64,000 bases of DNA, from assembly GCA_019096065.1 (NCBI GenBank), contig JAGUCH010000007.1:3928501-3992500 (forward strand). The letters run 5' to 3'. Every line of letters starts with the position of its first letter. Positions within the stretch are counted from its first letter, which is position 1. The notes under the pieces were generated by a model. It was not told the origin of the DNA. It made no database searches and saw only the letters and a list, made by a program, of their open reading frames with translations. This document shows positions 6,801 to 59,854 of this stretch, piece by piece. The position numbers and the translations under genes are program-made. The stretch is from Paracyclopina nana (taxonomy: Eukaryota > Arthropoda > Copepoda > Cyclopoida > Cyclopettidae).

Positions 6801-9800
6801 GCTTCATCTTCCGCCTCCGAGAGTTCATCAGCTTGATCACGGAGTAGCCGAGGAACGCGGCCAAGAGGGGCACGAAGCACAGCACGATGCAGCCATAAAT
6901 GTAAGCGGCCTCACTTCCCTGCATCACATCAAAGATATGAGAGAATCAGTCACGCTTTAATTTATGGGCACTAAGCCATATCATATGTACGCTCAAGATC
7001 GTTGGGCGTGGCACTTCCATTCTTCTCGGATGATGGCTAAAAAAGTGATTACCTGAAAGTAGTCGTAGCCTTTAAGGTATGGACAATGCTCCAAGTGGCT
7101 CGCGTTCAGCTGCAAAGGCTGCTCGCACGGATCGCCTTCCTTCCACTCGAACACATCCTTTTGAAGGTCTTCGTCCGCGATCGATGTCACCTGCTTGATG
7201 ATGTCCGATAGCTTCAAGGCTTTGATCTCGGCCACCTCCTCCTCGGTGAGAATACTGGAAAACGATGCGATGGTCATTTTCAGGCAGTTCCAGATAACAA
7301 TCAGCTATTATGCTCGCGGCCAACTATATATATTAAACATTTGAAGATATGCTTACTCGTGTTCCACGTTTTCGAACCAGAATCGGTCCGAGTCTCGGAT
7401 ACGTTCGAACTGCTCCTTGATAATTTTCCTGAACAAAGGCCCGGGACGATCGTAGGACTCGAGCATGCCACCCACATAGAGGTCCACATCATCCTAAAAG
7501 ACAAGACTAATGACATCACGGAATCCATGTCAACACTCCTTTTGAGGCTGCAGACATAAATTAGAGGAGCTTTTGCATGATGCCAGCTTTGGCCATGCGC
7601 AATATTGGCGGAATTTTCACTTTTCCACTTAAGCCAGTGGCCAAGATTCGGCAAGACCACACACGCATATACTCTAGCCTTGATTTATCACTTCTTGTGA
7701 TATTTAATTAGCAGCTCTGTTTTGTTAGTCACCTCTGCTTTGTGTTGAGCCCCCGTTAATTGAAACGTCTCAAAAGTGTCTTAGCAGGCTTTGAAAAATG
7801 GCCTTTTATTGTGCAATTCTTATATGAAGCGCGGGGGGCCCAAGTGCAATTACAGCTCCAAAAAGTGGATGTTGAGCAACCAACCCTAGTTTAGCCCTGT
7901 ATGGGCTCAAAATCAATGAATGCAGCCATCCAGTGTGCATATGTGCGCGCCATGAATGAGCCAAAGAGCAATAATTTCAGACAGTTTTCTTATTTATGCA
8001 AATAGCGTTAAAAACGACGTGAGCGCTTCGTGCATATTCATGTGATTAGGCCACACAATGGTGGAAGTAAGAAAACAAATTCAAGCCCACCAGCATGGCA
8101 TGCTTTGAGCTCTTGACTATATATATATACTCTAGGTTTGTACTCACAAGTTCGGTGTAGAGCTTTTGCAGTCGTTCGAATATTTCGGGATCTTCTTGAT
8201 ATGACAGAGGATTGATTTCGGACCACTTGCTCACTTTGGGCAGTCCATAGCACTTTCGCACTTCATTGTAGTCGGGCAACCCGTTGTCCCTGCCCCTCAT
8301 GATATTCAGGGCAGCCAGATCCCGCCTCGAAAACTCCATTGGCCCGAACAGCATGTTTCTGACGTCAGAGCACAAAACGTTGTCTTCCCGTTCGCCTATC
8401 TGGCTAGACAGGCCTAGTAGAATTTCCTCAATGGACTCGGGATTGATATTATCCTGAAAGGAATGTCCAGAGAATGTTAATAATATTAAACTGCGCCAGA
8501 GAGATGATGATGAAGATCATCTTTGGCTGGCAAATGTGTTCAAAGTTCAACCATCAAACTATTAGAGAAGATGTTGTCTGACATTAAGTCTAATGACTTG
8601 GCAATAAGAATAATGACGGGTCCATTTCACTACATTGCTTGGATAACAGCATTCTCCAGATAGAGGATTTCAATTCGCGAGCAAAAAATGGCGCGCTAAT
8701 GACGGGAAGAGGAAGTGTAAACAAAGGGAAAGCGAGCCGCCAAATTTAGGGCTAGCCTAGCAACAACAAAATGTTGAATCTTTCAAAAGCCACGTTTGAA
8801 GTACGAGCGGACAACAAAAAGTGCAGTGGAGAAATAGTTGTGTCATTAGAACAATGCCTGACTTTGAATATCGCACAGTAGGTGGCAGTTCTCGAGATGC
8901 TGCCGCGGCGACCAAGGCCTAGAAACTCGTTCCATTTTTTAAAGCTCTGCTCTGAAAATTCCATCAAGGTTACTCCAGTTGATTTGGAACACCGTGATTA
9001 TTACCGCAATATATCTTTAACGTTGGAGCTCGCGCGCGCAGGATTTTCCTAAGTAATCATCATCTTCTATGAGGCCGCGTTGACGGGCTTAATATGATTG
9101 ATCATCGCATATGCTCAGCAAGGACTCCTCCGAAATAGATTACTACAACAACCACGAGGATGATTCCGCAAATCCAGAGATCTCAACGCGCGCGCGTGCA
9201 TTGGCGGTGCGCAGCCAAAGTTCATTAATTAAACATGAGATTTGCTAAGCTGTTACACACACAAACTTTATCGCAGTTTGGCTTGTAATTAATTGTGTGC
9301 AACCGATAACTAAGCATGGTGAATCACGATCGATAAACTGTACCTGAGAATCCCACCAAGTTGCACACAGCCGCAGCGCCATGCCACCATTAGGAGCCTT
9401 TTTGAAGTTGCAGTGGCGGTCACGAACGTAGATTCCAGGAGGAATGGTCGTGTGTCCAAATCTGAGGAGAAAAGCATGTCATCATCGTATTGGAATAGCG
9501 AGAGAAAAACGAGCCAGAGCCTGTATTACATTTTGGCTGTGTGGGATATGAGACATGACAGCCTAGCTCAACAAACAAAACATCATACACACACGAGTAC
9601 AAAAAACCTTAGCACCTTTTTGGGCTTTAATAGTAGTTCATCTATTGGCCTTGGCTTTACAGAAACATTTTTCAGTCAACAACACGAGGCCTCACTCCTA
9701 ATGGCTAATGCTCGCTCATGAGTGGAAAAACGATGGCCAAATATAGCTAATTGCTTGCCAAAGAGTGATGAGCACACTTTAAAAACAGTTAATTCAAACA

Positions 9801-36555: not shown

Positions 36556-38508
36556 TTAGACAGCTGTAGGGCAATTGAACTCATCAGCTGGAACATTGAT
36601 GAACTGGAATTCTTCCCTTTCTGAGCCATCTACAGCCAACGTGGAAAAGGCCTCAAAACCACCATCTATGGTGTACTTGTATAAGGCTCCATCACTGTTT
36701 TCACCACCTCCAAATATGATGGTGTCATCATTCCATACAAAAGATTGAGCATCATCTCTATCGGAATCAACAGGATAGTTTTGACCAAGTGTCACTTTGT
36801 TTGTAACAGTATTCCACAAAATCACATCTGTTGAAGGTGTGCCATCATTCCCATTAAATATTACCACTGAGAAAAAAGAGCACACTTTGCACATCCTATC
36901 ATTTGAATTGGTTAATTTCAAACCTGTTGGTGCTCCATTGTAATTCAAAGTCTGGCATGATCCTTCATTATCCAAATCATACCCTAAGGGCCCAATAAGT
37001 TTGGTTTTGCCAGAAGTCAAAGGCCAATCAAGTGTATAAATATTGTTATCATTTGTACTTATCAAAGCAACCTTATTCTTAGCTATGAATGTCAAACAGG
37101 CAGAGTAAGGAAGCTCTATGTCAAGTGTGGGACCAGCAGTCCAAGTACTCATTGCAGGATCATATATGGCAGTATCACTGTAGCTCACTATAAACCACTT
37201 GCCATCAGGAGTGTAGACAGCATTCTCTTCACTCACTGATATGCCAACATTATCAAAAAGATCTGAGTCTTCAACCCAAGTAGAGCCATCCCAAGTTGCA
37301 CATCTTTCATAAGAGCAAACATATGCTTTGCCATTGACATAGAGGGCTTCGCCATCAGCATATCTACCATCAGCTGTGGGAGTTGAAGTAAAGGCACAAA
37401 TTTCACCAGTTTCAAGATCAACCAAGTCAACTTGCCCACTTGCAATGGTACCTCTTCCTCCACCAATAATAAGCAATTTGCCAAAGCCTGAAATAATGGC
37501 AGCTGGTTTAGCTAGTTTTGTTTAAATATATTGATGGCATTCATTTGGCTTGAAGATGGAGCTATTTCATACAAAATACCGTAAAAAATTGGCTCAAAAA
37601 ACACTCTTACACACAAAAACAAGAAAAAACCTTTAGGCGGCATTAGGGCTTGAATTGTGTAATATAAAAAAGTCTGAAAGTGATTTTACTTAAACCTTTT
37701 TTTTGAAGAAATTCAAAAATAAAGCTACTTAGGTATTCACAAAGCAATATGTTTTGCGTTTTTAGGGAAAACCAATTGTAAATATATGGTTTGCATGGTA
37801 TTTTGACTTGTAACATACCTTGAGAGAAGGCTCCTGTGGTATCTAAGAGGCAGCAATCTTGACCTACACTTCCTTCATAGCAATAACACTGCTGATAAAT
37901 GCAGTCCCCTAAATCACAACATTCTGCCACCTCTCCAGGGCAAATATCACCTATTAATCAAACATCTTAATTTTTAAGGGTGGAATCATTTTTGAATGTT
38001 AATTATGAACCTGATTTTTCCTCTTTCTTGTGAGTGCAAACAATTTTCATATTAGACTTGTGTGATTCTAATTGGAGGTTATTGTGATAGGGGCTATATG
38101 ACAAAGTACTGTAGTCATGGCCAGATTCTAGGTTGAAATTTGGGAAAAGGGCAAAATCTGCTTCACCCAACTTGATGGCTGCTCCAGACAACACATGGCA
38201 ATACTTGTGTAAATCTTGGATTTTGAAGTTCTTGAAATGGTGAATTGCCCACCAAGCTCCATTGTACTTAATTGCATTGAGGCGAATAGTGTTACGGAAT
38301 GACTCAGTCAGGTTTCCAGGATGCCCCAGAAAGTTCCTCAACTTTGCCAAAGTCAGCAAATTGGCCACATTTTCAACATAATGGTCAACATCAGCACGTT
38401 TGTCTTCTTCATCCTCACATTTGTTTAGCGCTTCTTCAAAATTGTATTCCCCATTCATACGTTTAGAGCAGATGAAGCCATTGAGATACCAACCATCAGG
38501 ACATTCAC
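36556..38508 (-). CDS. Secreted C-type-lectin-like / Cys-rich / Kelch-type protein, copy 1 (5' end not found)
   Basis: Exons 38011-38508, 37819-37950, 36924-37487 and 36556-36866 are phase-consistent. Exon one codes a divergent C-type lectin-like domain, beginning CPDGWYLNGFICSK and closing at IVCTHKK. Exon two codes a compact Cys-rich module (DICPGEVAECCDLGDC...CYCYEG). The last two exons code a beta-propeller-like region with Kelch-type strands (LLIIGGGRG, YVNGKAYVCSYERC, DTIIFGGGENSDGALYKY). The first exon shown begins at an acceptor with one base carried over, so a signal-peptide exon must lie further upstream but I could not find it; an in-frame ATG just before it (MIMLGECP) is an alternative. 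The last intron (57 bases) is a multiple of three and stop-free. The domain combination suggests an extracellular sugar-binding protein. Confidence 0.7.
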
Positions 38509-42468: not shown

Positions 42469-44373
42469 TTAGACAGGGCAATTGAACTCATCAGCTGGAA
42501 CATTGACGAACTGGAATTCTTCCCTTTGGGAGCCATCTACAGCCAACGTGGAAAAGGCCTCAAAACCACCATCTATGGTGTACTTGTATAAGGCTCCATC
42601 ACTGTTTTCACCACCTCCAAATATGATGGTGTCATCATTCCATACAAAAGATTGAGCATCATCTCTATCGGAATCAACAGGATAGTTTTGACCAAGAGTC
42701 ACTTTGTTTGTAACAGTATTCCACAAAATCACATCTGTTGAAGGTGTGCCATCATTCCCATTAAATATTACCACTGAGAAAAAAGAGCACACTTTGCACA
42801 TCCTATCATTTGAATTGGTTAATTTCAAACCTGTTGGTGCTCCATTGTAATTCAAAGTCTGGCATGATCCTTCATTATCCAAATCATACCCTAAGGGCCC
42901 AATAAGTTTGGTTTTGCCAGAAGTCAAAGGCCAATCAAGTGTATAAATGTTATCATCATTTGGATTTATCAAAGCAACCTTATTCTTAGCTATGAATGTC
43001 AAACAGGCAGAGTAAGGAAGGTTTATGTCGAGTGTGGGACCAACACTCCAAGAACTTGTTGCAGGATCATATATGGCAGTATCACTGTTGCTTACCATGA
43101 ACCACTTGCCATCATTAGCGTAGACAGCATTGACTTCACTCACACTAATACCAGCAACATCAAAGAGATCTGTGTCTTCAACCCAAGCAGAGCCATCCCA
43201 AGTAGCACATCTTTCATATGAGCAAACATATGCTTTGCCATTGACATAGAGGGCTTCGCCATCAGCATATTTACCATCAGCTGTGGGAGTTGAAGTAAAG
43301 GCACAAATTTCACCAGTCTCAAGATCTACCAGGTCAACTTGTCCAGCTGCAGTGGTACCTCTTCTTCCACCAATAATAAGCAATTTGCCAAAGCCTGAAA
43401 TAATGGCAACTGATTTTGCAAATTTTGCAGGTGAAGGCAAATTGGCTTGTAAAAATAATAACTTTGCATGAAAACATGCCATAAAAACGGGCATAGTAAA
43501 AATACTCAATAACTTTTCAAAGCTATTGGCCTTTTCATTGAAGTGCAAGACTAAGAAGAATTCTTAAATATTTTTAATTAAAAACTTTTTTTTTTCAAAA
43601 TAGAGGTGATTTTTGCCTTTTTTGCTGTCTCTTATAGGTTAATTGGCCTATATGTATTCTAAAATTATTTGATACCTTGAGAAAAGTCTCCTCCTCCATT
43701 AGAGCCACCTCCTCCACCACCACAGCAATCTGAACCTTTGGTTCCATCATAACAATAACATTGTTCATATATACAGTCCCCTAAATCGCAACATTCAGCC
43801 ACTTCTCCAGGGCAAATATCACCTAAATGAATCATGCCAAAAATCAGTTGCACCATAGGAAAGCTAATGAAGTACCTGATTTTTCCTCTTTCTTATGAGT
43901 GCAAACAATTCTCATATTTGACTTGTGTGATTCTAATTGGAGGTTATTGTAATATGGGCTATATGACAAAGTGCTATAATCATGGCCAGATTCTAGGTTG
44001 AAATTGGGGAAAAGAGCAAAATCTGCTTCACCCAATTTGATAGCTGCTCCAGACAACTCATGGCAATACTTGTGCAAATCTTGGATTTTGAAGTTCTTGA
44101 AAAGGTGAATTGCCCACCAAGCTCCATTAAACTTGATTGCATTGAGGCGAATGGTGTTACGGAATGACTCAGTCAGGTTTCCAGGATGCCCCAGAAAGTT
44201 CCTCAACTTTGCCAAAGTCAGCAAATTGGCCACATTTTCAACATAATGGTCAACATCAGCGCTTTTGTCTTCCTCCTCATCACATTTGTTTAGGGCTTCT
44301 TCAAAATCATGGTACCCATTCATACGTTTGGAACAAATGAAGCCGCTAAGATACCAACCATCAGGGCATTTCC
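42469..44373 (-). CDS. Secreted C-type-lectin-like / Cys-rich / Kelch-type protein, copy 2 (5' end not found)
   Basis: Exons 43876-44373, 43676-43822, 42831-43394 and 42469-42773 match copy 1 in order and phase; the first and third exons have exactly the same lengths (498 and 564 bases). Differences: the Cys-rich exon ends in a Gly-rich run (CCGGGGGGSNGGGDFSQ) instead of CCLLDTTGAFSQ, the propeller has several substitutions in its first half (for example VNAVYANDGKWFMVSNSD), and the C-terminus is two residues shorter (FNCPV). The last intron is identical to that of copy 1. As in copy 1, a first exon with the signal peptide is missing from the model; here no in-frame ATG precedes the acceptor. 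Function inferred only from domains. Confidence 0.7.
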
Positions 44374-46410: not shown

Positions 46411-47691
46411 ATGGATGGTTTGATGATGCACGAGGGACCAATAAATCGGACATCTGGTGGACCACCCGAAAAACCATCATCAAATGCTGGGCCTGTATTT
46501 TTTACTCTCATGAGTGGCTTTGGTCTCTTTTTAATCATTTGTCAGATGAGCATTGTGAGCATTGAATCACCAAAAGATTCTAGCCAATATCATTATCTTG
46601 TTAATGCCAATACTTCTAAGTTTATGCACGGCTTAGAAGACGAGTCAGTAAGGTACAATGTGAGCATTGATTATAGCTTTTTGAACTAATTAGCATTTTT
46701 TCCGTTAAGGCCTCATAGTGATTCGTGCATTGGGCCTTTTCTGACCGTTGCGGATGGAGGCCGTTTGGGTAACCTGATGTCTCAATATGCCACCCTCTAT
46801 GCCAGCTCAAAGCGCTTTCATGTCAAGGCAGTGATCAGCGCTAAAATGGCCGGAAAGTTGGACCAAATTTTCCCTTATCTATCCATACGTCCTTTGTTGC
46901 CTAGCTGCAAACTTAACTGGACCAAGACGAATATTCGCAACTTAGGCAGCCACTCCTTCACGAATGGAGAGAATGTGCTCATTGATGGATACCCAAGTGA
47001 GGTGCCAATGTTTGATTTTTATCGGAAACTGTTGTCACTCACTGACTTCAAAATGAACAGTGGAGTCGAGGAAGATGCCAAAAGGTTCCTTCAGAAGGTT
47101 GCCAAAGATACAGGCGCCCAAGTATTCGTAGGAGTTCACGTCAGAAGAACAGACTATTCTGTTTGGCTCAAGAAAATGGTCAATGGCCGATTGCTCTCCA
47201 AGCAATATTACTCGAAAGCAATGTCGATTTTCAGAGATAAATACAAAGACTACTTGGTGGCATTTGTCGTGGCCTCTGATGACAAGAAGTGGTGCAGGAG
47301 TATGCTAAGCAAGGAACCTGGATTCGTTTTGACTGACCAAACGAATTCGCGTGAATTGGACTTGGCAATTTTGGCCCAGACAAACGAGTCAATAATTAGG
47401 TGGAGTAATTAACCCCTATGAAAAACTAATTACGTTGCAAAATACATAGCCACTCATTACAGCTTTGGTACTTTTGGTTTTTGGAGTGCCTATCTAAGGC
47501 CAACAGGAGACGTTATCATCGCAGATGGACACAGCCAACGAAAAACGTTGTTAAATCAGCAGATTAGCACGATGTTGCCTTTTTGGAAATTCCTACGAGA
47601 TCCTTGCTTTCAATATTCGAAAACAGGCCGACCAGTATTGACCAAAGAATGTGCAAAGAAGAGACACGAGTATGGAATTTTCGAGAACTAA
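46411..47691 (+). CDS. Galactoside alpha-1,2-fucosyltransferase (GT11)
   Basis: Golgi type II membrane enzyme that transfers fucose from GDP-fucose to galactose of glycans. Exons 46411-46652, 46710-47399 and 47463-47691 give 386 residues. A short cytosolic N-terminus precedes a membrane anchor (VFFTLMSGFGLFLIICQMSI), then the stem and catalytic domain. Family motifs are ADGGRLGNLMSQYATLYA near the start of the catalytic domain, VGVHVRRTDY (about 221-230), the GDP-fucose-binding motif, and SFGTFGFWSAYL near the C-terminus. Catalytic-domain length is normal. The 3' end converges on prohibitin-2 with about 120 bases between stop codons. An upstream ATG at 46392 is quickly followed by a stop, so the start at 46411 is preferred. 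Confidence 0.88.
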
Positions 47692-47809: not shown

Positions 47810-48886
47810 TTACTTTTTAGCGGTTAAAGACTTAATGCCCTTATCATAATCGTCCTCGTTAATATTCAGCATCAAGGTTCCAGCATTCAAGTAGACTCTG
47901 TTTTGCGATTGAGCCATCTATGGAAAAGTGTGTGTAAGGAAACGCTCTGGAACAAGTGAAAACAAAAAGAAACTCACGGTTTTGGCGATGTGTCCAGAAG
48001 CTCTTAGCTTTCGCAATTTAAGATAGCCAGGGTTCTTGGTGATGGCAGCTCCCAACATTGTGGCGGCCTCTGCTTCTCCCTCAGCCTGGACAATCTTTTG
48101 TTGTCTTTCCTGTTTGGCCTTGTCAACAATAAAGGCTGCTCTTTGAGCTTCTTGCTGGGCAACTTGCTTAGACTCGACTGCAGCAGCATATTCCTTGCCA
48201 AAACTAAGCTCAGTGATGGCGACATCATCAAGAATGATGTTGAAGTCTCTTGCTCTGTCAGTAAGCTGCTTTCTGATCAGCAGAGAAACCTAGGTAAAAA
48301 TGGCTTTTTTAAGCATGAACAAGAAAAGTACGAATAGGCTTACCTGTTGACGTTGGGTAATCAGCTGAGAAGCATTGAACTTGGCCACAACACCCTTGAG
48401 GACTTCGTTGCAAATGGAGGGCAGCACTTTTTCGTCATAGTCAATGCCCAACTCCTTATGGATTGAGGGAATGAATGAAGCATCAGGTCGCGACAAAACG
48501 CGAAGGCTGATGTTGACCATTTGCAAATCCTTTGAACCAGTGGGTGAGGAGATTTTCCTGGGCCTGGATCGGATATCATAAATGATGGGATACTGAAACC
48601 AAGGGATCCTAAAGTGCAGTCCTTCAATCATAATGTCCTCTTGAACACCTCCGATTCTGCTGAAGATGATGGCGCGATGACCACCCTCAACTATCGTGAA
48701 AAAAAAAACATTATTTGAGGTTCGAAGCGAAATGATGTAACAGTGGCCATTACCAGTGTAAATGGATTGCTGAATTCCATAAACAGCAGCGGCAGCTCCT
48801 GCTAAAAGCTTAACACCGAGTCCAAGGCCTTTGGGAGCTCCACCCTTACCAAGGTTTTTGGCAAACTCGTTCAATTTATCCGCCAT
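47810..48886 (-). CDS. Phb2: Prohibitin-2
   Basis: Inner mitochondrial membrane scaffold protein that forms ring complexes with prohibitin-1 and supports cristae, m-AAA protease control and mitophagy. Exons 48754-48886, 48344-48690, 47978-48289 and 47810-47917 give 299 residues, exactly the human length. The N-terminus [16 protein letters not shown] leads to the membrane anchor ([15 protein letters not shown]), then the SPFH domain ([53 protein letters not shown]) and the C-terminal coiled coil with [10 protein letters not shown] and [12 protein letters not shown]. Every exon joins in phase. The [11 protein letters not shown] block identifies PHB2 rather than PHB1. It is head-to-head with chiffon (414 bases between start codons). 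Confidence 0.97.
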
Positions 48887-49300
48887 GTTCGAAAGTTAGC
48901 GTTCGGAAAAACTCACGCGTAAGTATTTCAGACCGATGTTTACTTTTATGTTTACTCAAGGAAGAGCAGAGTTGCAAAAATATTCATTGAAATACTCGTC
49001 TCTACAGGGAAGTGGCTATTTCATGAAGTATTTGGCGGATTCAACCACATTAGCTCTAGTAACTTTGTAACATTGTTCCCAGAATATTTATTTCGTATGG
49101 CTTTTTCTCGCTAAATAGTAAGGGGGAAATGTGAGACGATTGCATCAAAGCCACTCATTGGATTTCAGAATTTAGATGTCCCGGGCGAATTTTCAAAAGT
49201 TTTCCGAGGCTCTCCAGATCCAAACGCAGCCATTTAAGGCATTGACTTGATTAAGCAGTAATTTGAGTATGTCTGTCGGTAGCGACAGGCATAGCTAGAA
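48887..49300. promoter_or_regulatory. Shared head-to-head promoter region, Phb2 / chiffon
   Basis: The 414 bases between the divergent start codons of Phb2 and chiffon must carry both 5' UTRs and core promoters unless remote 5' exons exist. No TATA box is evident. Confidence 0.55.
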
Positions 49301-51211
49301 ATGGTGTCGCCGCGAAAAAGACCGACCACGGCCACCGTTCAAGATCACCATCATCATCAAGGAGCAGATCGTGAGTTGCGCAGATATTCTCTCATTTGTA
49401 GGAATAAAGTGTCATTCATTCGTATAGGTGCGAAATCTCGCAAGTTTCGCCAACAAGTTTTTGCCAAGAAAAAGTTTTTTCTCGACATCAAAAACCTCGA
49501 ATCGTCCCACGTCAAGGAGTTGGCCAAAGATCTCCTACTTCTCGGCGGGGTGAGTACGGCAGTTTTTCCTTTGATACGCGCCGCGCTAGTCTGGAATTTC
49601 GTCTCAGAGCCATAAAACAAGCCTGGCTTTACGCGCCTCCCTTTGCGTTTGCCTGCTGCGTCCGAGTTCCGTCCGCGTCCTTCCTCAATTGCTATGAAAA
49701 AGTGGCATTGATGTATGCTGAAACAGTTTGCAAAAGAGGCCTTTTGATAGGAGCGAAAAAGCCGGCTGGCTATGTGTCCTCGGCACAACAGCAGCTGCAA
49801 CCTCGAGGTCTCACTGCATTAGCAAGAGCTGTAAAGAGACTTTGTTTTACTATAGCGCGCGCGTTTCTGTTTCGTGACTGTGAGAGTGGCCTCTTCTCTG
49901 CCGTCTACTATACAGTCGCTCTCACGCACAGTAGTCTCCGTTCGCTAGCTGGCCAAGCTTTGCTGTAGTCGAGGTGAATGCTAACGGTTGAGCCGGCAGC
50001 TGAAGCAGCGAGTCGGGATGGAAAGGAAGCGAGCGAGTTTGACAAGTCGGACCGGTGCGGCCAGATCATCGAGTAGTTTCCTCCCCTACGAGCTGCCATT
50101 ACACAGGCTTGACAAAGCTGTCTGCATACACTGGAGCTGGCGGCTGAAACCAGTACAACTCAACGCAATCGCCTTTGCTGCTAGCCTCGGCCTCCGTTTG
50201 GGGACTTCATAACCTATGGGCTCGCCAGCCAGCCTGCTCGTCACTTTTTACACGCAGCCTCCCTCATTTGCAGGCCATTGAGCCCTTCTTCTCCAAGGAA
50301 GTGACTACAGTCATCACTGACGCACCAGAGTGGAAGCTCAGGCCTCAATCTTCGGCCAAGGAAAAGCTGGGCCTCCACTTTGCTCCCAGCCCTTCAACCT
50401 CTGTTGGAACTCCGCTAGGAGCGAACAACTCGCCCACCAACTGGTCCCCTTTGTCGGTGCAAGAGGACGGACTAGCCAAGCAGAAGTTTCAAGCGGTAAG
50501 CTCACCAGCCATAAAAAGTGTCAAATGTTGTGCTGATCGTACGTTTTCCAGAAATCGAGAGTTGAGACGATTTTGGAAAAAGCCAGGCAGCAAAACGTTG
50601 CCGCCGAAAATACGTGTGACGTGCTTGAAAGTGCTCAAAAGTTTGGAATCACCGTTTGGCTCCTGCCAAAAATCATAGTGTGGATTGAAAACTACAAGAG
50701 GCGATACGGGCCTTTCGATCAGAAAAGCCACCGAAGATCTCACTCTTCCATAGGCCAACCAAGTGAAGTGGAGCAGCGAGAATTGAAAGCTCCCTACATC
50801 AAGTTCGAGGCGACGAACCACGAATTCAAGCCAGTGTTCACAGAGTTCCGTCGGTTTCCAAAATTGTATTGCGGAGGCAGAGCTGGACAATCGCCCTTTT
50901 TTATGCCCGATTCCCTCGTGAGGCATAAATTGCGGGACTACCCTGACAAACAGCACCCCCAGGCTCTGCCCAAAGTGCAAAAGAAGATCGTGGAAAAAGT
51001 TGTCCCTGCTCAATCAGGCTATTGTGAGATTTGCGAGTGTCCTTTTTCAGAGCTCGAGGAACACTTGAGCTCCAAGGTCCATACGGCTCGAGTGGGCCTT
51101 TCTCATTTGTGGACCAAGCTTGACTCGTGCATCGAACAAGTGAACAGAGTGACCAGCGACAGTGACATTGACGAAGAAGACATTGTGGGATCGGCCACGA
51201 GTGATCAGTGA
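49301..51211 (+). CDS. chif: Chiffon-A: Dbf4-type regulatory subunit of Cdc7 kinase
   Basis: Activator of the Cdc7 kinase that fires replication origins. Exons 49301-49370, 49428-49549, 50274-50495 and 50552-51211 give 357 residues. Visible parts are a basic start (MVSPRKRP), BRCT-like motif N (KKKFFLDIKN...FFSKEVTTVITD, about 35-85), motif M (APYIKFEATNHEFKPVFTEF, about 217-245) and the Dbf4 zinc finger YCEICECPFSELEEHL with Cys296, Cys299, His309 and His315. The frame ends at a TGA 49 bases before the exon's strong splice donor (ACG-GTGAGT). Two further introns follow, and a second long frame starts 19 bases after the stop. Intron 1 (57 bases) is stop-free and a multiple of three. The Drosophila gene is known to make separate Cdc7-binding and CHAT-binding polypeptides; this model matches the first. 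Confidence 0.85.
49550..50273 (+). other. Chiffon intron 2
   Basis: Intron of 724 bases between GGG-GTGAGT and TTTGCAG-GCC. No further feature seen. Confidence 0.8.
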
Positions 51212-51233
51212 TGTCGACGTAGGACGCAACATG
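51209..51233 (+). promoter_or_regulatory. Intercistronic junction of chiffon
   Basis: The stop of the first frame overlaps an ATG (TGATG), which opens a mini-frame of three codons ending in TAG at 51220-51222. The start codon of the second long frame is at 51231-51233 with A at -3. Only 19 bases separate the first stop from the second start. This suits termination-reinitiation or leaky scanning, which is inference. Confidence 0.6.
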
Positions 51234-54200
51234 CCCACCAGAACAGCATTCATCATCACGGTGAGTGATAGCCAACTTCAATGACAGTTGAGATGTACGC
51301 AACACTGTGTGAATTTCAGATTGGAGATGTCCTAGAAAGCGGTCCCCCTAGAAGTCGAGCCTCGAAGGCGGTCAACGGCCAGAGCAGCGGTGTTGATGAC
51401 ATTGACGAGTCTCCGCCATCCTCACGGCCTCATTCACCAGCGTCTTCCACCTACAGCGATGCACCTCGTCCTCGTCGCTTCAGGAAGCGAAACAAAATGA
51501 AAACACGTGTCAGCAATACCGGAGGAGCCTCCGCCAACGTTGTGGTCAATGGGGCCAGCAACGGAGGTCGGAGGTCGCGCCTTCAATCAGTCGATCAAGT
51601 GTATTTAAATAACAGCAACAATAACCCTTTGAGCCCGAGGACGCGATCCTCTGTGAAGCAAGAGGTAGACGAAGAAATATCATTTGCGTAAGTCTTGCTA
51701 GTTTTTATTGCGAATGGTTTTCTAATTGTCATCTATGCAGCGATCCTTTGAGCACTGAAGATGAAAAGTGCAACGGAGTAAATGGATTCGCGGAAGAACC
51801 TGAGGAAGCCAAGGACACAGTGACTGAAGTCTCCTCCAATGCAATCAAGAAAAAGAGAAAATCCAGTGCCGAGAAGTTTCTGGAGGACAATTCGGAATAC
51901 TATGGGTTTCAGGTCCTGCCTTCAAAGCTCCGATCTTCTTCTGTTGATTCATCTACTACTACAACTAGCTTTCCCAATCCTTTCTTGGACTTCTTGAATC
52001 GAAGCAATTCTACTACTATTGGTGGTGATAGTGATAATGGTGCTGGCATTTCTTCTGAACAGACCCAGAAGTTGCAACATGTGAGAGTAAACTTCGAGAG
52101 AAAAATACTGTATTGCTAACACGACGGGTCGACATTTTTGACAGTTGGTCAGACCCCCGGGCAATTTGTTTTTTCAGCTAACACAAAGCGCATTTTCAAA
52201 GGGCTTCATTGTTTTTGAAAATTCTCGATACTATTCTAATCAACTCACGTTATGTCCATGTCAATTGCTTGTCTCAGCCTCACCAATTCTAAATTGAAAT
52301 CACTAACATCTAGCGTTCTTATCTTTCCCCTTCAATCTCTGTCTGTCCCTTCTGAGAAAAATTCCCTTTTCGGTGCAAATTCTAATTTCAATGTTTATAT
52401 GTAGGATCATGACGAGAGGCGAAGTCAGCGCCACAGATCAGCAAGCAGCAGCCTTAGTGCAGATCCGTCAGTGGATGGAATCAAGGGAGAGCGATCGAGA
52501 CACAGCAGCGGAGCGTCCTCCACAAAAAGGCGCATCAGAGCTAACAGCTCGTCGAGCAATCATCACGGAGAATGCTTGAATGCGACCAAAAAGCTTCGCG
52601 TGGAAGTGACCAAAATGGAAATCAAGGACTCGACCACAGTCAGCAGTGATCATTCTGGACTTTCCAGCAGTGAGGAGCAAACCAACGATCAAAATGGAGA
52701 CCGTCCCCTCAGGAAAAAGCTTCGATCGAGGCGTAACAATGCGGCCTCTTTGTCGCCCTCGTCCAAGAAAAGGAGATCCGAACTGGACAAGCTCTTGGAG
52801 GCCGGGTTGTCCTCATTCCACTGCGAGACTGCCAAGCAGGCTGCTGATAGAATGGGGCCACTTCAGGTTGATGTGTCAGATAACAGCTCAGAAACCGGCT
52901 CAGTTGAAGAGGCCAAGAAGGCCGCTCGAGGCTCTTCTTCGAGGCTGCTTCAAGAGGCTGACGTCAACCAAAACTCGAAAGGTGGTGGGAAAAAGGGGAA
53001 GGCTGTGCCAAAGACTTCCAAGAAGGTTGGCGCCAAGAAGGGTCGGCGAAAACGGACGAGTGGCATCAAATCGGAGCCAGAGGAAAACGAGGACGAAACG
53101 CTGAGTTGTGTGTCGCCCGTGTCATCCTGTGTCTCGCCCAATTTCATGAACAGCATGGAGGATGCACTCAAGAGGGTGGACTCCAACGAAGTGGAAATTT
53201 CCTCCATGGAGTTTTCCTTCGAGAGAACGCCGCATAGGGAAGGCTGGTTCCAGACCTACTCGAGACAAGATCAAGGCGATGAAATCCTTTTCTACCCGGA
53301 TCACCTTTCATTCCCTTTGCCGTATGAAATGCCCATGAGCACATTTTATCCCCGAAAGGAGGGAGGAGCAACGAGCAAAAAGGCTGGAAAGACAACCCCA
53401 ACAATTTCGGGCACTGCCACACCAATTGAGGAAGAGGAAGAACCGCTGCAGGCTGTGAGAACGACAAGAGGCAAATCGAGCAACAATGCTGCTGCTACAG
53501 GCAAAAAGAATCTCAACAATATCTTGGAAGGTCCCTCGTTTTTCGACAAAATCGATCCCAAGAAAGCGGCCGCCCTAAGAGCGGCCGAGTTCTCTCGTAA
53601 AAGCCCCAGAGGACATGCCTCTACCAAATCCCTGTTGAACTCAGCTTCGCCCTATGTTGACGACATGGACGATGAAGTGTTCGAGGACCTCATCGACGGA
53701 GCCAAGAGACCAGTGGGGTATGCCAAGAGCTTGGCCTACCTTGACGAGTGCTCGAATGACTCGATGATGTCGACCAGTTCAAAGAAGGGCGTCTCCGAAT
53801 CCGTCGGCCAATTTGAAGAATTAGCCAACAATTTAGACTCTATCCTCTGTGAGGAAGACCCTATGCTACTGCCCATTGACGCACCTACCTCAGATAATAA
53901 CCATAGTAGTAGCAAAAAGCGGTCGCGAAGGCAATCCTCGTCGGACAAAGGAGGCAGCAAAAAGCACCGGAAACCCAAAGAAAGCAACGAGCCCGAGAGC
54001 ATTCTTGACCGGCTCGTGGACAACAACGTTGACCCAGTATTTTTGGACTGCCTCGAGGATGAGCTGCCCAGTGTAGTTTTCGACGAGGCGATGCCAGGCT
54101 CGGATCCAATGGACCTCATTTTCTCGTATGAAAACTGCACCTCAATGAAACCCTTGGGGCGCAAGAAGAAGCTGGCCGCCAAAGTGATGGAGGCTGACGA

Positions 54201-55419
54201 GCCACGGTCCAGTGTCACGATGGATCCGGAACCCCTAGTTGTTTGTCACAGCAAAGATCCCTCGTCGACCATCCTTAGGAGGCTTTTGACAGATCCTGCA
54301 AAGCGCAAGGGAAAGAAATCTGGTGTCGTGCGAAAACAGAAAGCTTCGTTGAACGCCATTCCGGCTTCTGCGGATGATTCCAGCTCCGAGTGTGCATCGA
54401 ATTGCGAAACTGCGAGCGTTGCGAGCAGTTCTGCGTCCAGGCATAAAAAGAGGCGCAACTTGACTGGCTTTCCCTCCGTGAAAAAGAAGAAAACCATACC
54501 GAAAAACCAGTCCAAGCTCATAAACAACAACGGAGTTGCTGCTCCGAGGCCATCGACTCCAAAGACGCTCATTAAGCCGCCCTTAAAGCCCAAGCTCGGC
54601 CGACCTTCAAAGGCTGACGCGGCGGCGAAAAAGGGCGAAAAGGGGCCACCGACCAGCAAACCGAACAATCGTATCGCCAAGGCTGTGCAACTCCAGCTTA
54701 AACTTGGCTCAAATGGGATCTCTTTGCAGAAGCCGACCAAGTCTCCGCCCAAAAAGGGTGGGCTAGTCAAGCGAGGTCGACCTTTGTCCAAGTCGAAGCA
54801 GCCTTCGAGGAAAGTCCCCGTCAGAACCAGCAAAGCGGCTGCAGTCGCTCTACCAAAGCAAGCTCCTCCTTCCTCTGAAATCATTGACATTTTGTCGTCG
54901 GATGATGATGACTTTGACGATGACGACGACTGCACGTTTAGGCCTAGAATGAGTACGAAGAAAATTGCTGGCAAAAAAACGAAGCGCAGCAAGAAGAAAA
55001 ATAAGCGTTCGCTGGTTCTGAAAAAGCCAAAGCGTTCACAAGTCCCTGTGAAAGTCATTACCATAGACGACGATGATGAGGGAGGCGAAGCTCCTGCCAA
55101 TAATGACTCGCCTTCCAAAGATCAGGATGAGCCCGTCGTTGATGTAGACACTGATGCAGGAGAAGCGTCCAACCCCGACAAGGAGGCGCAGAGCGAGTCA
55201 GAGGAAGGTGACAGCGACGAGGATGAGGAGGAGAGCGAGGATGACAGCGAAGAAGCCGAGGAGTCGAGCAGTGGCGAGGAAAACGAAGAGAGCGAGAGTG
55301 GAGACGACAACGAGTCAGATAATGAGGCTGATGGCTCTGGTGACGACGATGAGGACCAACCCATCAGCAAGAACAAAACTAGGGCATCTTCTAGGTCAAA
55401 CAAAGGCAAGGCTACTTGA
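51231..55419 (+). CDS. chif: Chiffon-B: long C-terminal polypeptide, putative Gcn5/CHAT-binding
   Basis: Separate frame on the same mRNA. Exons 51231-51260, 51320-51687, 51741-52080 and 52405-55419 are phase-consistent and give 1250 residues starting MPTRTAFIITIGDVLESG. Most of it is low-complexity, rich in Ser, Lys, Glu and Asp, as expected of a disordered nuclear scaffold. One segment looks structured: EFSFERTPHREGWFQTYSRQ followed by ILFYPDHLSFPLPYEMPMS, about residues 510-555. Two AT-hook-like motifs (KLGRPSK, about 976; KRGRPLSK, about 1035) and a long acidic tail (about 1132-1235) follow. In Drosophila the corresponding polypeptide binds Gcn5 and builds the CHAT acetyltransferase complex; assigning that role here is by position and general composition, since I cannot align the fly protein. 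Confidence 0.75.
52081..52404 (+). other. Chiffon intron between the last two coding exons
   Basis: Intron of 324 bases (CAT-GTGAGA to TATGTAG-GAT), pyrimidine-rich in its 3' half. Nothing else seen. Confidence 0.75.
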
Positions 55420-55761
55420 TGAGAAGATCGTGTTGTACATTTTGGGCTGTTGCAGTTTTTTAACTAATAGATGAATGTCTAGTAATAGTCTTGATAAAGT
55501 TGATGTTATCCGATTCCTTTTTGTACCTACTACTATATATAGAAGAGAAAAACAGCTCCCCTCCCCATACTATGAAAATTTGTCTATTTTATGAGACGAT
55601 GGATGACCATTCAGGATGTTTTTGTATCACACGCTTTTTAGTATGATATATATTCTGTCGATAACAACCCCCCACCACACAACGTATGATGATGATGACA
55701 TTTTTGCTAGGAGAAACACATACAAAAAATCGTAATAAATTATCTCTATATCGAACTAGAG
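55420..55761. other. Convergent spacer, chiffon 3' UTR
   Basis: Holds the chiffon 3' UTR with AATAAA at 55734-55739, only about 25 bases before the stop of the next, opposite-strand gene. Confidence 0.6.
55734..55739 (+). terminator. Chiffon polyadenylation signal
   Basis: AATAAA about 315 bases after the Chiffon-B stop codon. Confidence 0.6.
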
Positions 55762-57099
55762 TCATTTTTTGCCTGCGGCCGCTGCAAGAGCGAAAGCATT
55801 GGCTGCTGCTTGCTCCTGCATGACAATGGCCATGTAGGCTCCTGCCATGACAACCATAGATCCGATGGCCATCATCATGGGATCATGGAGGGCATCGGCA
55901 AGGCTGTGTGCATCCATACCCATCACATGCTCAACGATCATTTCGTTCAATTGCCTTTGCGGTGGAGATGTTGTGGCCAATGTTGTTGTCGTTGTCGTTG
56001 ACGTAGTGGTGATTGTTGTTGTTGTCCTCCTTCTTTTTACATCAGTCACTAGTGAGCCCCTCATACTCATTGGCCCTTGAGGCTGGGAAAACGGGACTAT
56101 CCTATTTTGCTGAGCTGTGTGGCCCATGATTGGGTCATTTTTGGTGTCGCAATCTTGACCGAAACTGGAAGAGCAAGATGAGCTTTTCCTCTTGCATTTT
56201 GTCTCCCCATTAATTTCACTGCATTCTACTGATGATGTCATATGGCCAATAGGTCGATTTCTTTCCCCAGCTACGACATTGTTGAAATTGAAGTGGGGTG
56301 ACATGTCCAATTCTGGCTCGTCTTGCCTGTAGTTTTTACGAAGGTTTTGAATAAGCTCTGCGAGCTGAGATTTCTTCTCTTCTAGAATCTTTTCTTTCAT
56401 TTCATAGGTGCTTTCAAATGCTTCAGAGGTGTCATACCCGTGGTAATTTGGAAAGGTAGGAATGGCACCTTGGTTCCATTTCCTTCTCACTTCTCCATCT
56501 TTGGTAATTTTCTCGTGCATTTTTTCTATACTAGGCTGCTGCTTGTCTTTAGTGACTGCAACTTCCTCGTTTGATTTTCTCTTTTGTAACGTGGATAGCT
56601 CAATGTCATTTGAGGCCAAAGTTGATATGGAATCTGACCTCGCGGTTGGCCCTTTGGCCTCTTTTTCTTCCCAAGATGTTAATAAGAGGCCATTTTGAGC
56701 TTTGGCAGTGTTTGTGGTGCCAGTGGTAGCCGCCATGAATTCTTGAATTTGCTGCTCTGTCACCCGACTCTGATCTGGCAAGAACATCACTATCAAATCT
56801 CCTTGGGGAAAAGTCAGCCTCTGAGGCCGCCCATTGTTGATTTTCACATTGAAATTCATGCTGAGCCGTAGCACACTTTGGTCCAGTTCAGATGATTCAG
56901 TGTGAGAATTTTGCACAGGAAATAGCTCCACTTTTTTCACCGCGTCACCGTAGTTCACATTTTGGAAATGCTGGCTGATCTTGTTGGCAATATTGATGGC
57001 CTCTAAGCTGTTATTGGAGATGGTCAAAATGGGGTTGTGAACCGGCGAGCCCAAAGATTCGGCCGACAAAATAAAGATTGATGCCACCAAAAGAGACAT
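55762..57099 (-). CDS. Secreted Thr-rich protein of unknown function
   Basis: Single exon, 445 residues. The start is a signal peptide (MSLLVASIFILSAESLGSPV). The middle is polar and probably disordered, with a Glu/Lys helix (MKEKILEEKKSQLAELIQNL), a short cysteine cluster (VECSEINGETKCKRKSSSCS) and a run of threonines at about 350-380. The C-terminus contains a hydrophobic Met/Ala-rich stretch (MMMAIGSMVVMAGAYMAIVM) ending AAAAGKK, which may be a membrane segment. I recognise no domain. It is followed by another intronless secreted gene on the same strand 254 bases upstream; the shared layout suggests a matrix or cuticle role, which is only inference. Confidence 0.7.
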   Translation of the reverse strand: MSLLVASIFILSAESLGSPVHNPILTISNNSLEAINIANKISQHFQNVNYGDAVKKVELFPVQNSHTESSELDQSVLRLSMNFNVKINNGRPQRLTFPQGDLIVMFLPDQSRVTEQQIQEFMAATTGTTNTAKAQNGLLLTSWEEKEAKGPTARSDSISTLASNDIELSTLQKRKSNEEVAVTKDKQQPSIEKMHEKITKDGEVRRKWNQGAIPTFPNYHGYDTSEAFESTYEMKEKILEEKKSQLAELIQNLRKNYRQDEPELDMSPHFNFNNVVAGERNRPIGHMTSSVECSEINGETKCKRKSSSCSSSFGQDCDTKNDPIMGHTAQQNRIVPFSQPQGPMSMRGSLVTDVKRRRTTTTITTTSTTTTTTLATTSPPQRQLNEMIVEHVMGMDAHSLADALHDPMMMAIGSMVVMAGAYMAIVMQEQAAANAFALAAAAGKK

Positions 57100-57353
57100 T
57101 TTTGAACACTGATAAAAGCAACAACGGTATCCTCACCTGAAAAGTTTCTCGAGTACAGTTAAGGATATATTATTTGTGTTAGAAGTTGCGCAAGAGCGTT
57201 GTTATCACGAATTTTGCTTGATGGGTTGCGTTACTCCAAAAGATGAAATCTTGCGACAAGAATCAGCGGGAACAGCGGCAAAATACCAAAATATAATTAA
57301 TGGCTCGTAAAACTTTTATGAGTAAGAAATTATTTTTGCTGGCGGCTAATTTA

Positions 57354-58925
57354 TTAGTTTTTTCTGCGTTTCACTAGACGTAAACCAGCTTTCGCATTCA
57401 TATTATTTTTGGTGTCCAATTTCTTTCTTTTCCTCACGGTGGATGACGCGCGCTCTTTGCCATCTGCGGCTCTCGAAAATGGGATTGCCCCAAGCTTGAG
57501 TGTGTCTTTATTCCAAGAGCCATAAGTGTTGGGCATCCGCTTTAGCTCCTCGTTATTCTGGCTGTCATTATTCGAGTCTTCCCACGACGGTTTTGCTAAA
57601 TCCAGCGAAACCCAAGGCTTGACACTCGCGGGAATTTTGGGCCTCACATTATGCGTGGGCTTGATGTCGTACCATTTGCTCAAATCAGGCCTATACGTGT
57701 ATTTATCGTCACCGGGGTTGTCCGACTCCTGCACGACATATCCAGCATTGACTAGTTGCTCTTTTCCGACAAAAGGCTCATTAGCTGCAGCAAAAAATCG
57801 ATCAGGTTCACTGTAGTAATCGTTTCTGTCATTAAATTGATTTTTCTCATTATTTGTCACAGGAAAGTAATCCCGTTCTGGTTTCGCTGTTTGATCATTG
57901 TAGGCTGGAATTTGGTCATCATTTGCAGTGAAAGTGGTGCCCCCTGGAAAGTATGGATTTTTCCTCGTTATGCTCTTTCGAGTGGTGGTCGTGTCTTCTC
58001 GATAATTGTAGCCAGCCCTTCTAACATTGTTGTAGTTGTTATCACGATTATTATAATTCCAGCTGCCATAGCCTTGATGATATTGATGCATCGGCGGCTG
58101 GCGTTGATGTCTCCACGTGATTGTGTCCCTCAGACCATTTGGCACCACCAGCTCCTCTTCATCTTGCTGATTATGCCGTTTTATTATTTTGGGGCCATAG
58201 GCAGTGGTGACTCCAAATCTGGAGTCAGTATTGTGACTGGGCCTCACTGGCTCTTCTTTGGTGGTGTAACTTGTCCTCGAGGGTCGCCTCAATTTTCGTT
58301 TTTCGTGGTGATAGTTGAACGGGTCGTACCGCTCACTGTCCACCCTGTCAGTGAGGACATTGCTGTAGAAGCTAGGCAAAGCTTCTTCGGCTTGATCGTA
58401 AGTCACAAAGGGCCGAGGAGCTTCAGTTGTCACTCTATTGTTATAGGTTGAAGGCCACTTGGGATTCGCCTGGTTGGAATACAGAGAGGCCACTGAAAGG
58501 CCCAAAGTCGAGGCCGTTGCTGTGGTCTTGATATTCGGCCTCGTTCTCGGCCTTTGAGTGGACTTTGCCTCATCATAGTGGACTTGCTGCACGTGGTTGT
58601 CCCTCCTATCTTCAAATTCCTCGTTGTTACTCCACAAAGGGATCGTTTGGGAACACGGAGCGTATGGAGTGCATTCCACGGTGTACTTGAGGTTTGAGTA
58701 GGGATTCACCGGTTCCTCGTCCCATATGGGCTTGCTTGAGCCGGTGAAGTATCTCAAGGACGGGCCCCTCAAAATGTAGGATGAAAGGCCCGATTTGCTG
58801 CGAGGATTTTGAGGAGCTTTGTACAGCCTCGAGTTTTTCGAGTCGGACACTTCAATTGCATCTGCAGCGGTGAAAGCAGATGTCAGGCAAAGTAGAAAAA
58901 TGCGAGGAGCAATGTAATTCTTCAT
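57354..58925 (-). CDS. Secreted Tyr/Asn/Arg-rich protein of unknown function
   Basis: Single exon, 523 residues, beginning with a signal peptide (MKNYIAPRIFLLCLTSAFTA). The rest is hydrophilic and rich in Tyr, Asn, Pro, Arg and Asp, with motifs such as YGSWNYNNRDNNYNN and RRPSRTSYTTKEE, and only two cysteines near residues 85-90 (ECTPYAPC). The C-terminus is basic (VRKRKKLDTK...KRRKN). Composition suits an extracellular matrix or cuticle-associated protein that could be tyrosine cross-linked, perhaps by peroxidases, but that is inference. No family recognised. The start codon directly opens the signal peptide. Confidence 0.72.
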   Translation of the reverse strand: MKNYIAPRIFLLCLTSAFTAADAIEVSDSKNSRLYKAPQNPRSKSGLSSYILRGPSLRYFTGSSKPIWDEEPVNPYSNLKYTVECTPYAPCSQTIPLWSNNEEFEDRRDNHVQQVHYDEAKSTQRPRTRPNIKTTATASTLGLSVASLYSNQANPKWPSTYNNRVTTEAPRPFVTYDQAEEALPSFYSNVLTDRVDSERYDPFNYHHEKRKLRRPSRTSYTTKEEPVRPSHNTDSRFGVTTAYGPKIIKRHNQQDEEELVVPNGLRDTITWRHQRQPPMHQYHQGYGSWNYNNRDNNYNNVRRAGYNYREDTTTTRKSITRKNPYFPGGTTFTANDDQIPAYNDQTAKPERDYFPVTNNEKNQFNDRNDYYSEPDRFFAAANEPFVGKEQLVNAGYVVQESDNPGDDKYTYRPDLSKWYDIKPTHNVRPKIPASVKPWVSLDLAKPSWEDSNNDSQNNEELKRMPNTYGSWNKDTLKLGAIPFSRAADGKERASSTVRKRKKLDTKNNMNAKAGLRLVKRRKN

Positions 58926-59854
58926 TTTCCAACTCTACGAACAGCTAGCCATGGTTGTGTCCTTTTCTGCACTGAAGTGTTGCAAGCTTAGATTTGTCGC
59001 GGTGGAGCGATGGATTCGTGTCACGGTTTGCTGACGCTGGTTTTCCATGTTCTCGTGACACGAGTAGAAATCAGATATTTATGGCACCAACAACTCAAGA
59101 AACCTAATGATTTTAAACTAGAAAAGCTCTTCATCCATTAATTTGATATGTCACCTTTTTCCTAAATATTAGGAGCTGAACACTTTGGTGCGTAAAAGAT
59201 AATGTGAAAAAATGCTAGACTTCATAAAGGAAATTAGCCAAGGAGCATCTTTATAATCTGATTTTGCACATTTTCATAACTTCCTACTTCGCTGCTGGAA
59301 CATTAGAAGGTTTACATTGAAATTTTGTTGCACAATATTTTTTAGAATGAAGAGCACCAGTCCATAAAAGTGGTGACCTCGAGGAAACATATACGAGACT
59401 TTGTGCTTTGTATACGGATGATGACATGTCATAATTGACGAAATTAGGCTGAAAGTAGCATACTTTTACAAACATGCGGAGACATTGACAATATATTAAG
59501 ACTTTTTCATTAATTCAAGGTCGACGCAATTTTTCCTTCATAAAACGCAACGGGAAATTTATTGAACGCGGTCGGGAAAAGAGCAAGCGTGGAGAAAGAT
59601 CAGCTTGCAATAACCGATGCGAAACAATGATGATGTCCCTATATTAGAAATTAAAACAGAGAGAAAATCGCGATTAGCCAACTGCAAACATCAAGTGCGA
59701 GTTGCAAAGGGCTCAATAATAGTGCGCTTAATAGGGGAAAACGATTGAACTGCACGCGCATGACTTCTTAACGATGGCTATTTCTGGAGCACCTGCGCAT
59801 CTCCCAGCATTGACAACGCAAGCATCAATGGACGACCATTTTTATTGGAGGAAA
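58926..59854. other. Intergenic region
   Basis: About 930 bases, A+T-rich. Contains the presumed promoter of the gene at 57354-58925 and the 3' end of HYPK (AATAAA on the minus strand at about 59841-59846). No gene recognised. Confidence 0.55.

Follow-up and report, generated by a model that had tools for sequence, protein, structure and literature searches.

A chiffon-type gene of the copepod Paracyclopina nana lies on the plus strand of contig JAGUCH010000007.1, and we analyzed it within a stretch of 64,000 nucleotides (nt) of that contig (positions 3,928,501 to 3,992,500), which we call the window and whose numbering is used throughout. A preliminary description, made from the sequence alone, had read the gene as dicistronic: an open reading frame (ORF) for a Dbf4-like protein that stops at TGA 51209-51211, a spacer of 19 nt, and a second ORF of 1250 amino acids that begins at ATG 51231. 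These coordinates hold, and the two-ORF layout is confirmed as real in the sequence. The gene has seven exons, with GT at every donor and AG at every acceptor, and encodes first a protein of 357 amino acids (ORF1) and then one of 1250 (ORF2). Exon 1 (49301-49370) opens with the ORF1 start codon at 49301 (context CTAGAAATGG), exon 2 (49428-49549) encodes the first part of a putative BRCT-like motif N, and exon 3 (50274-50495), which ends in phase 0, encodes the second part of that motif. Exon 4 (50552-51260) carries motif M, the zinc finger, the ORF1 stop codon, the spacer, and the first 10 codons of ORF2. From its start codon (51231-51233, context CGCAACATGCC), ORF2 runs in phase through exon 5 (51320-51687, beginning in phase 0), exon 6 (51741-52080), and exon 7 (52405-55419) to a TGA ending at 55419. 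It had been claimed that only the frame opened by this ATG continues, and we see the same: exons 5 and 6 contain stops in both other frames, and exon 7 by itself is an ORF of 1004 codons plus the stop.

The spacer between the cistrons itself holds a start codon, ATG 51211-51213, which takes its A from the ORF1 stop (UGAUG in the RNA) and opens a 3-codon ORF, M-S-T-stop, at 51211-51222. The ORF2 frame is open 5′ of its own ATG as far as 51153, giving a 56-nt overlap with ORF1. We scored the splice sites with a simple position weight matrix, using textbook frequencies. The donor at 51261 that closes exon 4, described earlier as strong, came out at the top of the gene’s six donors with a score of 10.1; among the six acceptors, the one at 51320 scores lowest. 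Within 49300-56000, AATAAA is found just twice, in intron 1 (49403) and at 55734-55739 on the plus strand, the latter a probable poly(A) signal; there is no ATTAAA in this interval, and neither hexamer occurs between 49404 and 55733. The GC content at third codon positions (GC3) is the same in ORF1 and ORF2, 0.57. Across the whole window, there was no Rfam match at the gathering score and no tRNA.

The first ORF had been assigned to Dbf4 on the strength of its motifs, and database searches bear this out. Its zinc finger (motif C; residues 292-335, which the exon table places at 51011-51142 on the plus strand) matches Pfam PF07535, zf-DBF, with an E value of 7.3e-10 and 39.2 bits against a cut-off of 24.8. 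Using phmmer, we matched residues 215-325, the region of motifs M and C, to DBF4 homolog A (PDB 4f99_B, E 3.3e-4), and obtained marginal PDB matches to the DBF4 chains of 7pt6 and 7p5z (E 0.02-0.03). We take the DBF4 of 4f99_B and that of 7pt6 and 7p5z to be the human and yeast proteins. Motif N gave weak Pfam matches below the cut-off, to BRCT (E 0.0044, residues 32-86) and to DBF4_BRCT (E 1.5e-4, residues 131-179). The part of the protein encoded by exon 4 had no relative in the genome-contig and viral-contig collections. Judged by these matches, ORF1 is a Dbf4 homologue, and its product is presumably a Cdc7 activator.

The predicted product of ORF2 is composed of 14.9% serine, 9.8% lysine, 7.8% aspartate, and 7.8% glutamate. 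Exons 5 and 7 showed no Pfam family at E values up to 1 (exon 6, of 113 amino acids, was outside this search), exon 7 had no PDB match at E values up to 1, and a block of 55 amino acids had no relative in the genome-contig and viral-contig collections. Single-sequence AlphaFold, run without an alignment, gave no confident structure, with mean predicted local distance difference test (pLDDT) scores of 50.8 for 100 residues of ORF2 and 35.7 in a second run. Simple pattern searches picked out two stretches near the C terminus in which a hydrophobic core is followed by an acidic run (54880-54909 and 55048-55077), and two GRP motifs near 54598 and 54775. We take the former to be SUMO-interaction-like and the latter to be AT-hook-like.

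In Drosophila melanogaster, chiffon gives rise to Chiffon-A, which binds Cdc7, and Chiffon-B, which binds Gcn5, from a single exon of about 5 kb and one transcript (PMC8917357). The copepod gene is similar in that a Dbf4-type product comes first and a large second product follows at one locus. The position of ORF2 downstream of the Dbf4 ORF, on what we infer to be a common mRNA, is as expected of Chiffon-B/CHAT, and its length of 1250 is close to that of the fly construct covering 401-1695. ORF2 would probably encode the equivalent of the Gcn5-binding Chiffon-B. The two genes differ in structure. Fly constructs are numbered up to 1695, with 401-1695 as the N-terminal deletion (PMC8917357); this numbering implies one continuous frame. 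The fly gene thus appears as one large exon with one frame, whereas in the copepod a stop and a change of frame divide the two ORFs, and three introns follow. The preliminary description had likened this gene to a dicistronic fly chiffon; the two products of the fly gene are indeed reported, but the stop-separated layout is, on this reading, not simply that of the fly. We regard it as a variant of the fly arrangement. The authors of the fly study describe the C-terminal region of Chiffon as conserved within insects only (PMC8917357), and a review calls the two-product chiffon locus unique to the fly (PMC9220011). With no relative of ORF2 found in the collections searched, the earlier suggestion that CHAT may predate insects gains no support from our data.

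The message upstream of ORF2 is almost free of AUG codons, an observation that was absent from the preliminary description. After the ORF1 ATG and up to 51231, the 1090 nt of spliced message hold 2 AUGs, or 1.8 per kb, against 15-38 per kb in nine other ORFs of the window (a subset of the 11 ORFs that we used as shuffle controls). One is the AUG at 51211 that overlaps the ORF1 stop. The other, the sole internal methionine codon of ORF1, is in frame at 50903-50905 and is preceded by six T (context TTTTTTATGCC), and over the 356 codons there is not one out-of-frame AUG. When the order of the codons is shuffled, 7.0 out-of-frame AUGs are expected (P 0.0001 with 20,000 shuffles and 0.0007 with 3,000); when synonymous codons are permuted and the protein is held fixed, the expectation is 4.3 (P 0.003 and 0.002 in two runs); and when codons are sampled from ORF2 together with eight other ORFs, it is 5.4 (P 0.0008). 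In-frame methionine is scarce as well, with one internal codon in 356 against 7.2 expected (P 0.006). ORF2 is not depleted, having 45 out-of-frame AUGs against 33 expected, and the 11 other ORFs were likewise all free of depletion, with 0.38 as their lowest P. These 11 were taken from stop to stop, and three of them (36556-37521, 55762-57132, and 57354-58934) have no Pfam match above the cut-off. The six introns of the gene, 1273 nt in total, contain 16 AUGs, and the first AUG beyond 51231 is at 51327. When AUGs were counted in every 1090-nt interval of the window before splicing, the minimum was 3 on the plus strand and 9 on the minus strand; the plus-strand minima listed, up to 20 starts, fall within this gene.

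Codon choice was also compared. Codons for aspartate, asparagine, histidine, and tyrosine that stand before a G end in T in 0 of 8 cases in ORF1. In the 11 other ORFs they do so in 167 of 223 cases (Fisher test, 2.5e-5), and in ORF2 in 44 of 80 (P 0.003). Within ORF1, the same codons end in T in 15 of 38 cases when no G follows (P 0.03 against 0 of 8). The first cistron is depleted of AUGs, as in dicistronic genes that use leaky scanning.

Such a desert is expected if the ORF1 AUG is bypassed by scanning, because 40S subunits stop at AUGs and elongating ribosomes do not. We consider it reasonably probable that the gene is expressed as a single spliced, two-cistron mRNA that gives Dbf4 and then a separate protein of 1250 amino acids, the latter reached mainly by leaky scanning. 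The model builds on the exon anatomy, the Dbf4 identity of ORF1, and the AUG desert, which are observed; we infer the remainder, including that there is a single mRNA, that translation starts at 51231, that ORF2 corresponds to Chiffon-B, and any regulation. One spliced mRNA would carry both cistrons, with the Dbf4 protein translated from the first and the separate 1250-residue protein from the second. Scanning 40S subunits would skip the ORF1 AUG, perhaps with the aid of a short upstream ORF, and those that skip it would cross 1.09 kb nearly devoid of AUGs and initiate at AUG 51231. In addition, a restart after UGAUG may occur in some ribosomes. A candidate for the upstream ORF, nine codons long, lies at 49269-49298 on the plus strand, with 2 nt between its end and the ORF1 ATG. 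Provided that it is transcribed, ribosomes that translate it would resume scanning too near ORF1 to start there again and might proceed to ORF2; such spacing could favour delayed reinitiation. The desert raises the probability that ORF2 is translated independently.

The stoned and Snapin proteins differ from those encoded here. At Drosophila stoned and Snapin, as summarized in PMC11892635, the first cistron is similarly poor in internal AUGs and the second depends on leaky scanning; a shortage of AUGs in the first cistron is the published signature of this mechanism (PMC11892635). Green-algal bicistronic loci resemble the copepod gene in the scarcity of start codons before the second ORF, and when an internal AUG was added there, the second product was lowered (PMC11892635). 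Both systems differ from chiffon in their start contexts: the first AUGs of stoned and Snapin are said to diverge from the consensus, and weak Kozak-like contexts are preferred for ORF1 in the algal loci, which belong to another lineage and to other genes (PMC11892635), whereas the ORF1 context here is not clearly weak. In the literature that we searched, no paper pairs “chiffon” with “leaky scanning,” and among the matches listed no title points to chiffon in crustaceans.

We then considered other ways in which ORF2 could be translated. Ribosomes that have just finished ORF1 might reinitiate on ORF2, by way of the UGAUG overlap, the 3-codon ORF, and the 19-nt spacer, and the close spacing of the two ORFs and the overlap itself speak for this. 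Reinitiation after an ORF of 357 codons is rare in animals, and it would leave the avoidance of AUGs inside ORF1 unexplained, because elongating ribosomes ignore AUGs; we find this route quite improbable. ORF2 could also be served by its own promoter, by an internal ribosome entry site (IRES), or by +1 frameshifting at CAG-UGA-U, in line with the 56-nt overlap of the two frames. None of the three predicts the desert. The RNA around the junction (150 nt) folds worse than 199 of 200 shuffles (z +2.1), which does not suggest a structured IRES or a frameshift-stimulating signal; although no search aimed at internal promoters was made, we judge this group of explanations very improbable. The desert favours scanning to 51231 over frameshifting, over an internal promoter or IRES, and over a route in which reinitiation behind ORF1 is the sole source of ORF2.

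Two further explanations concern the frames themselves. Alternative splicing could fuse them, either by skipping of exon 4, so that exon 3 is joined to exon 5, or through a donor inside exon 4, and the message that retains exon 4 would then encode Dbf4 alone. Skipping would keep the frame, since the end of exon 3 and the start of exon 5 are both in phase 0 and the result is a continuous open frame of 1378 amino acids, although such a match of phase arises by chance one time in three and the protein would be without motifs M and C. The acceptor at 51320, the weakest of the gene’s six, also fits with such splicing. As for internal donors, four donor-like sites ahead of the stop in exon 4 score above the weakest donor in use (3.97), and two of them, 50918 (4.65) and 51140 (4.20), are in the joining phase (phase 0), judged by phase only. 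Against these stands the much stronger donor at 51261 (10.1), and all the donor-like sites ahead of the stop score below five of the six used donors. Alternative splicing does not predict the desert, and we regard it as unlikely. Alternatively, the change of frame could stem from a single-base error of the assembly or from an indel confined to one allele, somewhere in about 51153-51211, and the true gene would then have one frame, as in the fly. The 56-nt overlap and the openness of the ORF2 frame 5′ of its ATG would allow for this, and by its residue numbering (PMC8917357) the fly gene appears continuous. Homopolymers in 51153-51230 are at most 3 long, and a base error would not produce the AUG desert, though the desert would still be compatible with an uninterrupted gene that initiates internally at 51231. 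An error or indel here seems to us distinctly unlikely.

The leaky-scanning model has to be weighed against several points that count against it. By the general Kozak rule, which we applied in place of a local table, G occupies both −3 and +4 around the ORF1 AUG, and the ORF2 AUG has A at −3 (CAACATG). The ORF1 context is acceptable and not weak by this rule, so leakage needs a short leader, the upstream ORF, or a factor. AUG 51211, with G at −3, stands before 51231. Upstream, the 405 nt that separate ORF1 from the neighbouring prohibitin-like ORF contain 7 AUGs, which the leader may include. As for the desert, A-ending codons before TG codons are uninformative (0 of 6 in ORF1 and 0 of 5 in ORF2), and among the 64 trinucleotides, TTA and TAA exceed ATG in out-of-frame depletion in ORF1. 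At P < 0.05, depletion of TAA recurs in ORF2 and in 5 of 9 other ORFs, and that of TTA in ORF2 and 4 of the 9, whereas not one of the ten is depleted of ATG; this control was run on 9 of the 11 other ORFs. Finally, we conceived the AUG test after noticing the single internal methionine of ORF1, and both the test and the model rest on the sequence of one gene.

The preliminary description had also predicted that the message should be a target of nonsense-mediated decay (NMD), since ORF1 stops ahead of three introns. The exposure is there: the ORF1 stop lies 49 nt 5′ of the junction of exons 4 and 5, and two more junctions follow. The predicted outcome is less compelling. Ribosomes translating ORF2 could clear the junction complexes downstream of the ORF1 stop, and for this reason we do not see NMD as a strong objection to the leaky-scanning model.

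Other genes of the window were annotated along with chiffon. A Band_7 (prohibitin-like) ORF at 48290-48886 on the minus strand is divergent from chiffon, with 414 bases between the first ATGs, and given this arrangement the two probably share a short promoter region. A glycosyltransferase family 11 (alpha-1,2-fucosyltransferase-like) ORF lies at 46690-47412 on the plus strand (E 6e-22); this family is not known from most insects, which is a weak hint at a non-insect. Two kelch-type ORFs on the minus strand, at 36556-37521 and 42469-43563, have 33 and 38 out-of-frame ATGs and are perhaps a duplication. Adjacent ORFs at 4751-6945 on the minus strand carry EF-hand and ferric-reductase/FAD domains and are NADPH-oxidase-like; their GC3 is 0.81-0.86, against 0.33-0.57 in the other ORFs measured. 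The window also holds a trypsin-type ORF and ORFs for proteases with CLIP domains, which are a typical feature of arthropods; these ORFs point to an arthropod.

How one chiffon mRNA of the fly gives both a Cdc7 activator and a separate Gcn5 partner is an open question (PMC8917357). No substantial difference at the mRNA level was found between the two parts of chiffon, and the authors proposed translational control (PMC8917357). A stop at codon 174 leaves Chiffon-B made, and removal of the N terminus leads to a partial gain of CHAT-related activity (PMC8917357); the leaky-scanning model fits both results. Stop-separated products and an AUG-depleted first cistron, as we describe them in the copepod, offer a concrete and easily tested answer to the question raised in the fly. 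As a tentative and rather doubtful extension, chiffon might be a hard-wired translational switch between replication control (Dbf4/DDK) and histone acetylation (CHAT), with ribosomes either starting at ORF1 or crossing a selected 1.09-kb AUG desert. Bypass would perhaps be gated by the 9-codon upstream ORF, through delayed reinitiation like that of GCN4/ATF4, and the same scanning would explain Chiffon-B of the fly. If the desert is found across arthropods, the arrangement would be dated, and the control of replication and that of acetylation would be linked through the choice of start codon.

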